DNA of 44,903 bases from an uncultured Verrucomicrobia subdivision 3 bacterium (lineage in GTDB: Bacteria > Verrucomicrobiota > Verrucomicrobiia > Limisphaerales > UBA11358): positions 1-44,903 of the forward strand of contig CAIPKV010000026.1 in the NCBI GenBank assembly GCA_903865745.1, read 5' to 3'. Each line of letters opens with the position of its first letter. Within the stretch, counting starts at the first letter, position 1. Below, one piece after another: positions 4,401 through 42,075 of the stretch. The position numbers were made by a program, and so were the translations under genes. Below the pieces are notes generated by a model, which worked only from the letters and a program-made list of their open reading frames with translations, ran no database searches and had not been told where the DNA came from.

Positions 4401-5183
4401 ATGTCTTTCAAACCTTTGGTCATTGCCGGACGTGAATTTCGCTCGCGTCTGATTCTCGGCACAGGCAAGTTCCCGTCGCCGGAAGCCATGCGCGATGCGC
4501 TCGCCGCCAGTGGCACGGAAATGGTCACGGTCGCCCTGCGCCGCGCCGATTTGTCCGGTAAAAAAGATCCGTTCGCCAACATCCTCGAATTCATTGACCC
4601 GAACAAATATCTCCTGCTCCCGAACACCAGCGGCGCGATGAACGCGGAGGAAGCCGTCCGCCTCGCGCGCCTCGCGGTCGCCGCCGGCTTGCCCAAATGG
4701 GTAAAGCTCGAAATCCATCCCGACCCGCGTTACCTGCTGCCCGACCCGATCGAGACGTTCAAGGCGGCGGAGATTTTGGTCAAAGAAGGTTTCACGGTCC
4801 TGCCCTACATCAACGCGGATCCGGTTTTGGCGAAGCGTTTGCAGGAAATCGGCTGTGCGACCGTGATGCCACTGGGTTCGCCCATCGGCTCGAATCGCGG
4901 CGTCCAGACGCGCGACCAAATCCGTATCATCATCGAGCAAGCCACTGTTCCCGTCGTCGTCGATGCCGGCCTCGGCGCACCAAGTCAGGCAGCGGAAGCG
5001 ATGGAGTTGGGCGCGGACGCCGTGCTGGTGAACACTGCCATCGCCGTGGCGAACGACCCGAACCGCATGGGCATCGCCTTCAAGCTGGCGGTGGAAGCGG
5101 GACGCAGCGCATTCGAAATCGGACTCGGTGCGACCAGCGAGACGGCGAACGCGACGAGTCCATTGACGGCTTTTCTTAATTAA
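4401..5183 (+). CDS. thiG: Thiazole synthase ThiG
   Basis: 260 residues, the usual length. ThiG builds the thiazole phosphate of thiamine in the cytoplasm from deoxyxylulose 5-phosphate, dehydroglycine and the ThiS thiocarboxylate. Visible hallmarks: the opening [28 protein letters not shown], the Schiff-base lysine K102 in WVKLEI, and the phosphate-binding loops [11 protein letters not shown] and VVVDAGLG with [10 protein letters not shown]. The ATG at 4401 is chosen because the homologous protein begins with the strand KPLVIAG; the longer open frame from 4266 reads through repeat DNA. The thiG partners thiS, thiF and thiH/thiO are not in the window. The next gene starts 2 bp after the stop, so the two are probably cotranscribed. 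Confidence 0.95.
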
Positions 5184-12185: not shown

Positions 12186-12512
12186 AGTTTGTCTGGCAAA
12201 ATGATGACGTCCTAAATCCAAAATACCCCGTGGCTGCCGCCTGCGACCATGTCCTTTTTCAAATTTACCACGTCCTAAATTGAAATAAGGACGTCCTTAT
12301 TTCTAAAAAGGACGTCCTAAAAAGGTTTTACCACGTCCTAAACCGGCGCGACCACGTCCTTTTTGGGAATTACCACGTCCTTAATTTAAAAAAGGACATG
12401 GTAAAATATTTTACCATGTGGTGTCGGGTCGCGAGGACGTCCTAAATTCAAAAAAGGACGTCCTAAATTCCAAATCTGACATGGTTTTCCAGCGGGAAGA
12501 CGTCATTCACCG
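12186..12512. repeat. Array B: about 15 degenerate repeats, period 21 bp
   Basis: The core ACGTCC (or CCGTGG, ATGTCC, ACATGG, ATGTGG, ACGTCA) starts at 12207, 12228, 12249, 12270, 12291, 12312, 12333, 12354, 12375, 12396, 12416, 12437, 12458, 12479 and 12500. Every step is 21 bp except one of 20. Several cores extend to the palindrome GGACGTCC; others read CCACGTCC. AT-rich spacers (TAAATT, AAAAA) separate them. No open frame of 60 codons crosses it, so a coding origin is unlikely. It lies between the divergent kinase and E1alpha genes. Confidence 0.92.
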
Positions 12513-18527: not shown

Positions 18528-18598
18528 AACCACAGATGCACACGGATGGACACAGATAAAACAAATGCATCCGTGTTTATCCGTGTCCATCCGTGGTT
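18528..18598. repeat. Palindromic element between glutaredoxin and lipA
   Basis: The left arm AACCACAGATG...GACACAGATAAA (18528-18560) and the right arm TTTATCCGTGTCCATCCGTG plus GTT (18576-18598) are inverted copies with a few changes. The left arm carries an internal duplication. The right arm encodes the last six residues and the TAA stop of the glutaredoxin. A degenerate copy lies upstream of thiG. Confidence 0.75.
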
Positions 18599-20052: not shown

Positions 20053-20388
20053 GGAAGAATCCGGGAGTCCGCCGGGCTATTCCGAGGAACTTCTGAGGCT
20101 TTGGTAGGTTCCTCCGAGCCATTCCGAGGAACTTCCGAGCCGTCGGTAGGTTCCTCCAGACCATTCCGGGAAACTTCCAGGTCATCTAGAAGTTCCTCCA
20201 GACCGTCTGGAAGTTTCCCCAAGCCGTCCAGAAGTTTCTCCAGACCGTCCAGAAGTTCCTCCAAGTCGTTTGGAAGTTTCCCTGGGCCTTCTGGAAGTTC
20301 CTCCGAATGATTGGGAGGAACCTCCGGATGGTCTGGAAGTTCCTCGGAACCATGGGAAAGTTCCCCCAAATCATCTGGAAAAGCCGTT
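20053..20388. repeat. Array C: about 16 degenerate repeats, period 21 bp
   Basis: Units start at 20053, 20074, 20095, 20116, 20137, 20158 and so on every 21 bp up to 20368. Each has a core of the form GGAAGTTCCTCC or GAGGAACTTCC, close to the palindrome GGAAGTTCC/GGAACTTCC, followed by AGACCGTC-like spacer. No length change was found in the whole run. Overlapping frames on both strands are open through it (21 is a multiple of 3) and encode Leu/Glu/Asp-rich or Arg/Ser-rich heptads; I treat them as shadows. The array lies downstream of the fpr terminator, between the ends of fpr and gcvT. The rest of 19882-20532 holds no gene. Confidence 0.93.
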
Positions 20389-39098: not shown

Positions 39099-39430
39099 TC
39101 AAATGATATTTTAACGATACATTTATCTTTTTTAGCGGTTTCAATGAACTTAGGAAGGATTCAAAACGTTTTTCAAGGCGCTCAAAAGGTCTTTGCAGCC
39201 GTTCAAAAGGTTTTTCAGACGGTTCAAAAGGTTTTTTGAACGCCTTAAAAGGTTTCTGGGACGGTTCCAGAAGCTCTTCAACCCGCTCCAAAGGTTTCTA
39301 GAACCCTTCCAGAAGTTTTTTGAGGCGCTTAAAAAGGTTTTGGAATGCCTCAAAAAGTTTCTGGATACCATCAAAAAGCTTTTTAAACGGTTCAAAAAGT
39401 TGACCGGACGACACGAAACGTTCCCGGCGA
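39099..39430. repeat. Array D: about 15 degenerate repeats, period 21 bp
   Basis: The word TCAAAAGGTTTTT or a variant is phased with C at 39120, 39141, 39162, 39183, 39204, 39225, 39246, 39267, 39288, 39309, 39330, 39351, 39372, 39393 and 39414, always 21 bp apart. Most units carry an A-run and a T-run (AAAAGGTTTTT), close to a palindrome, so the DNA may be curved. Plus-strand frame 39193-39441 would encode heptads such as FKRFFRR, LKRFLGR, FQKFFEA with Phe/Leu kept at fixed places; frames on the minus strand are open too. I do not call a gene. The array lies between WalJ and the TrmH-family gene, on the same strand as both; the rest of the 39061-39534 gap shows nothing else. Confidence 0.92.
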
Positions 39431-39534
39431 ATCCGCATTAACTTTGGCAGCGCCACAAGAAGATATCCGCCACCCCGCCACAGTTGCCGGTTTGCAGGCT
39501 GGTTTTTTCCCGGCCTTGGCGCAATATCATTGAA

Positions 39535-40437
39535 ATGCTCCGCATTGAAACCATCACCTCGCTCGACCGGCCGGAACTCGCGCCGTATCGCACGCTCAAA
39601 CGCTCGGCCGCGCACGCGGAACTCGGCATCTTCGTGGTGGAAGGCGACAAGGTTTTGGATCGGATGTTGGAAAGTGATTTTACCGTCGTCTCGGTGCTGC
39701 TCATTGAGGAGCGACTCGCGGAATACGAGCCGCGCCTGCGCGCCCGGCCGGAGACAGATATCGCGCTCTACGTCTGCGAGCGGTCGGTGATGGCGGACAT
39801 GGTGGGCTTTGAAATTTATCAAGGCGTGCTGGCTATCGGCAAAATTCCGCCGCCCATTACTTTGGAAAAAATCCTCGCGGACAGTGCACGGCCGCGATTT
39901 TTTGTCGCCATGGATGAGCTGTCCAATTCGGAGAATGTCGGTGCCCTCATGCGCAACTGCGTGGCGTTCGGCGTGGGCGCGCTCATCTCCGGCGAGACGT
40001 GTTGTAGTCCGTTTCTGCGTCGCACGGTCCGTAATTCCATGGGCGCGCTGTTCAAGCTGCCGGTTTTGGTATTGGGGGAACCGGATGCCGCACGGTGGGG
40101 CGAGCGTCCTCGCGAGCCGCTGGCATCCGACGGCTCGCGGGGACGCTCGCCCCACCCATCAACCTTGGTGGAAACTTTGCGCGAACTGCGCGCGCACGGC
40201 GTGCGCTGTCTAGCGGCGCATCCGCACACGGACAAGAAAATCTTGTCGCAGGCCAATTTCACCGGGGATGTCTGCGTGGTGTTCGGCAGCGAAGGTCACG
40301 GGATTTCGCCGGCAGTTTTAGCTGTGTGTGACGAAGCAGTGGCCATCCCGATGGCGAACGACGTGGATTCGCTCAATGTCAGCGCAGCGGCAGCGGTATT
40401 TTTTTACGAGGTAAACCGGCAGCGCGGGAAAAGTTAA
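39535..40437 (+). CDS. TrmH/SpoU-family RNA 2'-O-methyltransferase with an inserted repeat
   Basis: 300 residues from ATG 39535. The N-terminal substrate-binding part (RIETITSLDRPELAPYRTLKR, FVVEGDKVLDRML) leads to the SPOUT methyltransferase domain with its three motifs: motif 1 DELSNSENVGALMRNCVAFGVGALI, motif 2 CVVFGSEGHGISPAVLAVCDE, motif 3 AIPMANDVDSLNVSAAAAVFFYEV, where the trefoil knot binds S-adenosylmethionine. The target RNA (tRNA or rRNA) cannot be told. Between motifs 1 and 2, residues from about 187 to 207 are encoded by a 63-bp palindrome, exactly 21 codons, which looks like an in-frame insertion. The stop lies within another palindrome (40434-40505). Confidence 0.9.
   Translation: MLRIETITSLDRPELAPYRTLKRSAAHAELGIFVVEGDKVLDRMLESDFTVVSVLLIEERLAEYEPRLRARPETDIALYVCERSVMADMVGFEIYQGVLAIGKIPPPITLEKILADSARPRFFVAMDELSNSENVGALMRNCVAFGVGALISGETCCSPFLRRTVRNSMGALFKLPVLVLGEPDAARWGERPREPLASDGSRGRSPHPSTLVETLRELRAHGVRCLAAHPHTDKKILSQANFTGDVCVVFGSEGHGISPAVLAVCDEAVAIPMANDVDSLNVSAAAAVFFYEVNRQRGKS
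40094..40156. repeat. 63-bp palindrome inserted in frame in the TrmH-family gene
   Basis: Two 26-bp arms (40094-40119 and 40131-40156) pair over their whole length with a single T-G wobble, and an 11-base loop CTGGCATCCGA. It starts GGTGGGGCGAGCG and ends CGCTCGCCCCACC. At 63 bp it adds 21 codons without a stop (RWGERPREPL, then ASDGSRGRSPHP). A REP or MITE-like insertion is likely. Confidence 0.9.
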
Positions 40438-40505
40438 ACCGCCAAGACGTCAACAACGCCAAGGCGGGAACAAAACTTGGCAAGCTTGGGGTCTTGGCGG
40501 TTTAA
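40434..40505. repeat. Palindromic element after the TrmH-family gene (copy 1)
   Basis: Perfect 15-bp ends TTAAACCGCCAAGAC / GTCTTGGCGGTTTAA. Its first bases supply the gene's TAA stop. A 27-bp stretch from 40438 (AACCGCCAAGACGTCAAC and nine more bases) recurs exactly, inverted, at 40854-40880. Confidence 0.85.
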
Positions 40506-40563: not shown

Positions 40564-40830
40564 ATGAAGCCCAAACAACTTGCCAATGTCCTCACCCGCA
40601 TACTCGGCCTGTCATTGATTGCGCATGGTATTCCAGGTTTGATAAACAGCTTCTACGGCTGGATTCAGTTTGCCTCAGATAATCACGCTTCTTTGCTGTC
40701 GAATGCGGGGCGCGAATCGCATTATTGGATGGTTGTGCTGTACGACCTTTACCCTTTAGTCATCGGTATTGCGCTCATCGTTGGTAGCCGCTGGATTACC
40801 GAAAAACTTTTTAAGGACGAGGCGGAATAA
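40564..40830 (+). CDS. Small membrane protein, function unknown
   Basis: 88 residues with two predicted membrane spans: about 8-30 (VLTRILGLSLIAHGIPGLI) and about 56-75 (VVLYDLYPLVIGIALIVGS). A polar loop of about 20 residues with SDNHASLLSNAGRE joins them. The N-terminus is basic and the end acidic (KLFKDEAE). I recognise no family. The gene sits between two inverted copies of the same palindromic element (40434-40505 and 40831-40883), so it could have moved with them, though this is only a suggestion. An AGGAAAATCC stretch lies 10 bases before the ATG and may act as ribosome-binding site. Confidence 0.65.
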   Translation: MKPKQLANVLTRILGLSLIAHGIPGLINSFYGWIQFASDNHASLLSNAGRESHYWMVVLYDLYPLVIGIALIVGSRWITEKLFKDEAE

Positions 40831-40883
40831 TTTAAGCCAAGTTTATTCCTTCGCTTGGCGTTGTTGACGTCTTGGCGGTTAAA
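40831..40883. repeat. Palindromic element after the small membrane-protein gene (copy 2, inverted)
   Basis: TTTAAGCCAAG (40831-40841) pairs with CTTGGCGGTTAAA (40871-40883) apart from two lost bases. It shares 27 bp with copy 1 in reverse orientation. It separates the convergent ends of the small membrane-protein gene and the glycosyltransferase gene, whose stop begins 2 bp further. Confidence 0.8.
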
Positions 40884-40884
40884 C

Positions 40885-42075
40885 TCAGCCCTGCCGATCT
40901 CGGTGAATTTCTTCCAGCCGTTGCACTACACGGGCGCTGAATGGCCGCCAGTCTAGCTCCGTCCGCACTTTCTCACTGGCAGCACTTCCCCATGCCTGAC
41001 GATTCGCCGGCGTTTCATCAAACCAAGTCAGAACTTTCTCCGCGAAGCTAATCGGATTCATTTCCGAAAACCGGATGATGGGATTATGCCCCCAGTAACG
41101 CATGGTTCCCCGCAGCGGGGTGCATACCATTGGCACGCCCATCGCCGCATACTCCACCGTCTTGGCCACCATTGTACACTGGGCCCCGGTTGAAGTCGCG
41201 TAGGGCACTATCCCAACCGTCGCATCATGAATCTTTTTCGCCACATCGGCGTAGGGCACGAAATCGGTGCACTCAATGGCCGTATCGGGGATGCGGCCTT
41301 TGAGCATTTCCAGCGTGCGCCGCAGCGCGTCGGTGCGCTTGCCCACAAAACGGAATCGGGTATCCGGCCGCTTCTGAAAAACCTGCGCCAGGGCCGTTGC
41401 GCCAAACTCGTTGATATGATGATGATCCAGCGAACCGTGCATCACGACCAGCGGCGTGGGCGAAGTTTTAAAAGTAGGTTGAAATAATGCCCCGTCGTAG
41501 CCGTAATAAATCGGCAGGGTCTTTTTTTCAGGATAGCCGGCTTGCTGAAAAAGGTCAGCGAGTTCATCCGAAATCGTAAAAATCCCTTCGGCGGAATATT
41601 TGATGGGCAGGGATAGCTCAAACTTCTTGAGCTGATTTACAATGGCAGGCGGCGCAAGATATTTTGGCCAGCTATCAAAGTAGCCGGTGAGATAATCGAG
41701 GAAATTCATCGCCACGGCACAGTCCAGCGACTGCCGCAAGCCACCGGCGGCCGCACAGGAAATCGCGTGTTGCGCGAGCAGCACATCAAATTTCACATCG
41801 CGCGCCGTCTTTTGGACGAGCCGTTTCAGAAAAAATGGGTACGCGAGATATTTCAGATTGCGCAGCGAGGTGTTGCGCCCCATCTGCCACGTCGTGAACG
41901 GATGCAGCTTGATTTGAAACTTCGCCTCCAGCTCCGCGACTTGGTCGGATTGCGGCGCGAAGACGTGGACTTGATGGCCGCGCCGGACCATTTCTTCAAC
42001 GAGATAAATCGCCTGCGAAGAGCCGCCGCCGCTGGGCGGATAAAAAGGTTCGTGCGTGAGGATGCCGATGTTCAT
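40885..42075 (-). CDS. Glycosyltransferase, GT4 family
   Basis: 396 residues from ATG 42075. GT-B fold, retaining family. The N-terminal domain opens with NIGILTHEPFYPPSGGGSSQAIYLVEEMVRRGHQVHVFAP, the usual Gly-rich donor loop start. The C-terminal domain begins near 205 (TPLVVMHGSLDHHH) and holds RFRFVGK, DFVPYADVAKKIHDATVGIVPY and the nucleotide-sugar site CTMVAKTVEYAAMGVPMVCTPLRGTMRYW. The protein has no membrane span and probably acts on a lipid-linked or capsule sugar at the inner membrane. The gene is divergent from a nucleotide-sugar epimerase gene (117 bp apart), which suggests a shared pathway for surface polysaccharide. Confidence 0.88.
   Translation of the reverse strand: MNIGILTHEPFYPPSGGGSSQAIYLVEEMVRRGHQVHVFAPQSDQVAELEAKFQIKLHPFTTWQMGRNTSLRNLKYLAYPFFLKRLVQKTARDVKFDVLLAQHAISCAAAGGLRQSLDCAVAMNFLDYLTGYFDSWPKYLAPPAIVNQLKKFELSLPIKYSAEGIFTISDELADLFQQAGYPEKKTLPIYYGYDGALFQPTFKTSPTPLVVMHGSLDHHHINEFGATALAQVFQKRPDTRFRFVGKRTDALRRTLEMLKGRIPDTAIECTDFVPYADVAKKIHDATVGIVPYATSTGAQCTMVAKTVEYAAMGVPMVCTPLRGTMRYWGHNPIIRFSEMNPISFAEKVLTWFDETPANRQAWGSAASEKVRTELDWRPFSARVVQRLEEIHRDRQG

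Follow-up and report, generated by a model that had tools for sequence, protein, structure and literature searches.

A probable REPIN-like palindromic dimer inserted in frame in a SpoU-type methyltransferase gene of a Limisphaerales bacterium

The 63 bp at positions 40094-40156 of the window (the whole 44,903-nt stretch of DNA analysed here) are a copy of a dispersed repeat; comparison with orthologues identifies it as an insertion, and it keeps the reading frame of its host, a methyltransferase gene. We consider it very probable that this copy is a non-autonomous, REPIN-like, head-to-head dimer of a GTGG-tagged REP which entered a length-tolerant loop of a SpoU-type enzyme, a loop in which such inserts are tolerated, decay and are hit again. 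In-frame palindromic inserts of this kind would offer a direct route from selfish DNA to protein, and relatives that are empty, filled or differently filled at one and the same codon position would form a natural series for studying target choice, tolerance and decay.

An in-frame palindrome in a SpoU-type methyltransferase gene

The host gene (39535-40437, plus strand) encodes a SpoU/TrmH-type 2'-O-ribose methyltransferase, RlmR/YsgA/MRM3-like, whose 300 aa plus stop are intact except for the insert (Pfam, Foldseek). While the list of open reading frames has TTG 39484 as the start, we chose ATG 39535 since the resulting 300 aa agree with the orthologue lengths of 270 to 301 aa. Pfam assigns two stretches of the protein to PF00588 (SpoU_methylase; E 4.2e-32); the best of them begins at residue 209, right after the insert. 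An AlphaFold2 model of the 300-aa enzyme (mean pLDDT 85.6) finds its best Foldseek match in RlmR (9h1k_A; E 2.1e-20, TM 0.74/0.84) and resembles RlmR of Thermus thermophilus, YsgA and further SpoU enzymes. Domain and fold thus agree on a SPOUT host (Pfam, AlphaFold2, Foldseek). In the model, the insert comes after strand 177-179 and before helix 211-220; its residues 184-196 and 200-207 have a pLDDT of <50 within a mostly confident surrounding fold, and the inserted residues are predicted to form a disordered loop. The preliminary description had located the palindrome between SPOUT motifs 1 and 2, and its position fits: NVGALMR (residues 134-140) and GSEGHGIS (residues 251-258), which we take to be these motifs, flank the insert. 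A second SpoU-type protein is encoded in the same genome (G000:C68:43431-44231); it is ~46-52% identical and free of the insert, so the gene in the window may be partly redundant.

The left REP arm (GGTGGGGCGAGCGTCCTCGCGAGCCG; 40094-40119, plus strand) bears the tag GTGG on its outside. It is followed by an 11-nt loop (40120-40130), the sequence of which is not common to other copies, and by the right arm (40131-40156, plus strand), an inverted copy that completes a head-to-head dimer. The arms, 26 nt each and 11 nt apart, are 96% complementary, the sole non-Watson-Crick pair being a T·G at arm position 17; together with the intact host gene, this agrees with the earlier account of a near-perfect, in-frame palindrome of 63 bp with a single wobble. 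Exactly 21 codons without a stop had been reported as well, which holds for the palindrome but not for the gain of the protein, which is ~28 residues relative to insert-less orthologues (300 vs ~272 aa). About seven of these residues come from additional linker codons upstream of the palindrome (LGEPDAA; about 40072-40092, plus strand), which alignments show to be missing from those orthologues and which, to judge from the sequence, may be the relic of an older linker.

Folded as RNA, the 63 nt reach -65 kcal/mol, compared with a mean of -30.2 (SD 3.4) for dinucleotide shuffles (z -10.1; 0 of 200 as good), and the single arms fold no better than their shuffles (z -0.8 and -0.2). A scan for intrinsic terminators, covering loops of 3 to 8 nt, returned none at the palindrome, and neither arm has a T run behind it.

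The palindrome belongs to a dispersed family

Searching the genome from which the window stems (G000) with a 91-base query gave 31 matches on both strands, corresponding to 14 distinct places, a recurrence that puts the palindrome far beyond chance. Two of these copies are truncated by contig ends (C63 and C43), and in another one arm is eroded (C69). When 10 own-genome copies were aligned, the arms proved nearly invariant and the loops unlike one another and different in length, their similarity hardly exceeding that of shuffled loops (0.37 vs 0.30). A covariance model built from this alignment, here called R1, found matches in 34 of the 59 genomes searched (own included), spanning 6 of 24 genera. 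Matches per genome range up to 79, with both strands counted and three genomes at 60 to 80, and copies are 51 to 91 bp in size. The search for further copies that the preliminary description had proposed thus revealed an entire family. Five copies (L046, L047, L114, L116 and L117) sit at or near contig ends, with mirrored flanks in the case of L117; as the repeat seems to break assemblies, R1 copy numbers are probably lower bounds.

For closer inspection, we collected 87 copies, namely the 76 best-scoring ones from relatives and 11 from the own genome, a non-random set in which L116 and L117 look like one copy entered twice. Arm position 17 is paired as T/G in 28 of them, T/A in 30, C/A in 17, C/G in 6 and otherwise in the last 6; the wobble seen in the window copy is common in the family. 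One copy (C79) is a tail-to-tail dimer. The flanks of R1 copies have a positional base bias, for example a pyrimidine before and a purine after the element. In addition, 8 nt of the 11-nt loop in the window (GGCATCCG) recur in reverse complement in the 5' flank, as CGGATGCC. Inverted loop/flank matches of this length were found in 7 of 84 R1 copies, with 2.6 expected (18 of 1,000 swaps as high); for 7 nt the figures are 12 vs 9.7 (257 of 1,000), and for 9 nt, 2 vs 0.7 (151 of 1,000). This is a hint that the loop may be derived from flanking sequence.

The palindrome is an insertion relative to orthologues

A search with the methyltransferase protein yielded matches in 56 of the 59 genomes; we aligned the 30 top-scoring loci, among them that of the window. 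In 13 of these, an LPVLE-like strand runs straight into the next helix with no insert at the site, which identifies the 63-bp palindrome as an insertion; in the other 17, a linker is present that varies in length and sequence. The proposed alignment with insert-less relatives therefore bears out the idea of an in-frame, REP-type insertion tolerated as a loop, as do the additional copies and the predicted disorder of the inserted residues. The same residues encoded by non-palindromic DNA in relatives had been named as the finding that would argue against a mobile insert. Instead, the residues are missing or different, the exception being one species (G004) with a palindromic copy of its own.

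Loci from named genomes numbered 23, of which 18 were used (L049-L066) and seven then removed as duplicates, including L050, which is the same as the linker-bearing L010. All 11 of the remaining loci are without the linker, three of them looking conspecific with loci already counted.

In the gene tree, the window locus (L009) sits among insert-less sequences, with most of the nodes around it weak (25-71%). Two further placements have 100% support: the linker-bearing L010 is sister to the linker-less L032, and L016, which bears R1, is sister to L018, which does not. Because of these insert-less or R1-less sisters, a single ancestral insertion shared by descent is insufficient as the sole account of L009, L010 and L016, which are scattered in the tree.

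R1 copies reside in unrelated protein genes

In 29 of the 87 copies, a frame free of stop codons runs through the element for at least 180 residues, including 40 to either side of it. Reading these against Pfam domains or alignments, we accept 17 as in-frame inserts within genuine genes: two SpoU genes, PheT, ThiD, four MutS, PurD, a nucleoside phosphorylase, two RibD, two AMP-binding enzymes (one with an acetyl-CoA synthetase N-terminus), RecN, a radical SAM protein and an SDR, where any name beyond the Pfam domain is our own reading. One Pfam stretch spans the insert in four proteins (MutS_III in L127, PNP_UDP_1 in L131, AMP-binding in L042 and SMC_N in L045), and in the ThiD and SDR hosts the domain match is broken into pieces around it. 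The insert falls between two domains in PheT, PurD, RibD and L166, and in L003 it comes after the first part of a DUF4080 match. Placement was by alignment for the other MutS, by flanks for the second RibD and by orthologue alignment for the SpoU gene of G004. As for the other 12 of the 29, nine went through the Pfam scan, five of them showing no domain and four a domain located solely beyond the insert.

Both orientations of the element occur, and the frames read differ between genes (WGERPREP, GGASVLAS, VGRASSRA), so no single peptide is selected. A copy elsewhere in the own genome (L006, G000:C15, ~5010-5081) is found at a putative ORF start, with downstream residues that in our reading resemble a DNA glycosylase.

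The SpoU linker and a MutS loop are used repeatedly

The methyltransferase linker is occupied by more than one kind of repeat. G004 (L016) has its own R1 copy at the same linker (72.5 bits). In G013 (L010), the linker consists of a different dispersed repeat, with seven nearly full-length places in that genome, self included. The linker of G001 (L015) is matched by three further places over 43 to 57 bases (86-93% identity) and by weaker ones. In our reading, the SpoU linker thus probably holds dispersed repeats of three families in four species (G000, G004, G013 and G001), and the linkers of L010 and L015 are candidate REP dimers; the folding of these two is unremarkable (z -1.6 and -1.5). Across all 17 SpoU linkers, only three (L009, L016 and L011) fold with z < -3, as against 2 of 85 control stretches. 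The other 13 linkers, searched with the R1 model only, gave one chance-level match (L033, E 0.24).

Several R1 copies from relatives share one loop of MutS. A MutS search gave matches in 49 of 59 genomes, and in the best 30 loci (L195-L224) this loop folds with z < -3 in 19 cases, compared with 3 of 178 control stretches from the same loci. We read these as in-frame palindromes, apparently of several kinds, across related species. Apart from R1, three of the kinds have further places in the genomes that contain them: that of G030 at eight places, self included; the GGTAGGGCAGAGC kind in G013, G029 and G020, with only two places in G028; and that of G018, with regard to the left arm only, at 25 places, self included. 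Searched in G000, none of the three kinds gave a match.

Palindromes in so many of the 30 MutS loci, and the very strong fold of the window copy, could mean that the hairpin itself is functional in mRNA or DNA, be it through translational pausing, RNA stability or supercoiling, and is selectively kept. We regard this as most improbable given that 13 of the 30 SpoU orthologue loci have nothing at the site, that the own-genome MutS loop (L206) gives no hairpin signal (z 0.4) and that no T run follows the palindrome. Nor does covariation in seven MutS copies rise above shuffles (one compensated cell; 221 of 500 as high).

That different families return to one site in each of two genes exceeds a purely random neutral expectation, which counts against the favored reading. 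It is conceivable, if doubtful, that REPs prefer existing REP palindromes as targets, entering or overwriting them, in which case the loop would be a targeted or self-perpetuating docking site where an ancient insertion gives way time and again to the resident family. R1 in the SpoU linker of G000 and G004, with a second family in G013 and a third in G001, would fit this account, and so would the several kinds of MutS palindrome and the recurrence of three of them elsewhere. Likewise, another inverted repeat encloses 5 of 84 R1 copies (score at least 28; the fold-back L117 aside), where ~0.4 of 85 would be expected. The majority of R1 copies are un-nested, however, and permissiveness alone could yield such recurrence if most other sites were purged. 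The account would also have loop centres kept while arms change; in MutS, nine centres all lean this way on average, but the test is weak, as 13 to 54 of 164 null loops matched their scores. In its general form, in which fixed housekeeping loops of this Limisphaerales group (the SpoU-methyltransferase linker and the MutS domain-III loop) serve as permanent docking sites in frame, with REP families overwriting one another serially, the idea appears rather unlikely to us. Were it true, a protein segment would be rewritten repeatedly, its coding sequence being supplied serially by REP turnover.

Element class and mobilization

Returning to the favored reading of a REPIN-like dimer in a tolerant loop, R1 comprises two inverted repeats with a short, highly diverse spacer and is dispersed in many copies (14 places in G000; 34 of 59 genomes). 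With regard to the GTAG superfamily, its tag is GTGG and its single arms are poor stem-loops, as noted above for the window copy. The latter point counts against a REPIN-like element: a canonical REP unit forms a stem-loop on its own.

The long, near-perfect terminal inverted repeats (ends GGTGGGGCGAGCG) and the pyrimidine/purine bias of the flanks would also suit a classical MITE of a DDE-type IS, bounded by terminal inverted repeats and a duplicated target. Such an origin is very improbable. Among 86 copies and 81 combinations of length and offset, no clear direct duplication a few bp long emerged around the element (best z 3.0; identity 0.35 vs 0.28), the loops differ between copies, and the tail-to-tail dimer C79 is unexpected for a fixed-end MITE.

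A RAYT-type transposase elsewhere in the genome had been suggested as a further check, and the outcome is divided. Two Y1_Tnp genes (RAYT or IS200-type TnpA) are indeed present in G000, both with other palindromes nearby, and such genes occur in 52 of the 59 genomes overall. Yet no R1 copy flanks the 12 Y1_Tnp loci examined out of well over 100 listed (flanks up to ~1.5 kb, less at contig ends), for which reason we can only infer that a Y1-type (RAYT) transposase made the copy.

In the mechanism that we envisage for the dimer, a Y1-type (RAYT) transposase would act in trans and copy the element via a single-strand hairpin. With arms that are stop-free in the frames read here, a net length that is a multiple of three and a flexible loop to accept it, a copy could survive as 20 to 30 disordered residues rich in Arg, Pro and Ser. 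Being neutral, the insert would then decay, and the permissive loop might be hit again by whichever REP family is active.

Relation to published elements

Intragenic, in-frame REPs are already on record in the published parts consulted for Opitutus and Rickettsia, making this an element of a known kind. REPINs are described, in the parts of PMC8049555 considered here, as two inverted repeats with a short, highly diverse spacer. R1 shares with them and with GTAG-superfamily dimers (PMC3733652, likewise in part) the inverted short repeats, the diverse short spacer, the outside tag and the dispersal. It differs from REPINs in the poor stem-loop of its single arm and in having no copy beside a Y1 transposase at the 12 loci examined. 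In the consulted part of PMC3733652, most GTAG-20 elements of the verrucomicrobium Opitutus terrae are given the GTGG form of the GTAG tag, intragenic REPs are said to be numerous in this species and intragenic REP dimers to encode 20 to 30 residues; R1 is similar in its GTGG tag, its verrucomicrobial host and its intragenic dimers. No sequence matching R1 occurs in the text parts consulted of PMC3733652 and PMC8049555.

Rickettsia palindromic elements (RPE; Ogata et al. 2000, 2002) are portrayed in the relevant part of PMC10969869 as in-frame palindromic repeats tolerated in unrelated protein genes, as is R1; the likeness is one of description, RPE being ~150 bp long as opposed to the 51 to 91 bp of R1 and belonging to a different phylum. 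Another parallel, again from part of PMC3733652, is recB of Xanthomonas campestris and X. oryzae, with different REPs at about one gene position in different species. Unlike in that case, several families and more species are involved here, and the genes are those for MutS and the methyltransferase. Measured against these published parts, what is less expected is how many different families share a single codon position, and this in two genes within one group. Among the titles listed from the open-licence literature, none is about REPs in this group's MutS or SpoU genes. REPs in repair genes are reported in PMC3733652, the main text of which does not contain the word mutS, and our MutS case touches the speculation, put forward in its discussion, that mutation is influenced by REPs inserted in such genes.

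Other repeats in the window

The window contains further repeats. A second palindromic repeat (accgccaagacg...cttggcggttta) is located at 40434-40505 and about 40845-40885, on both sides of a small ORF (40564-40830). Upstream of the methyltransferase gene, an 82-residue ORF without a Pfam match (39193-39441) consists of degenerate FKRF/LKRF repeats. At 12246-12485, AGGACGTCCT-type repeats that are inverted with respect to one another are densely clustered. At 18531-18595 lies a CACGGATGGACACAGAT-type palindrome, similar inverted repeats to which surround the R1 copies L044 and L139. Lastly, positions 20122-20349 comprise inverted arms of 59 nt (TTCCGAGGAACTTCC) with 110 nt between them.
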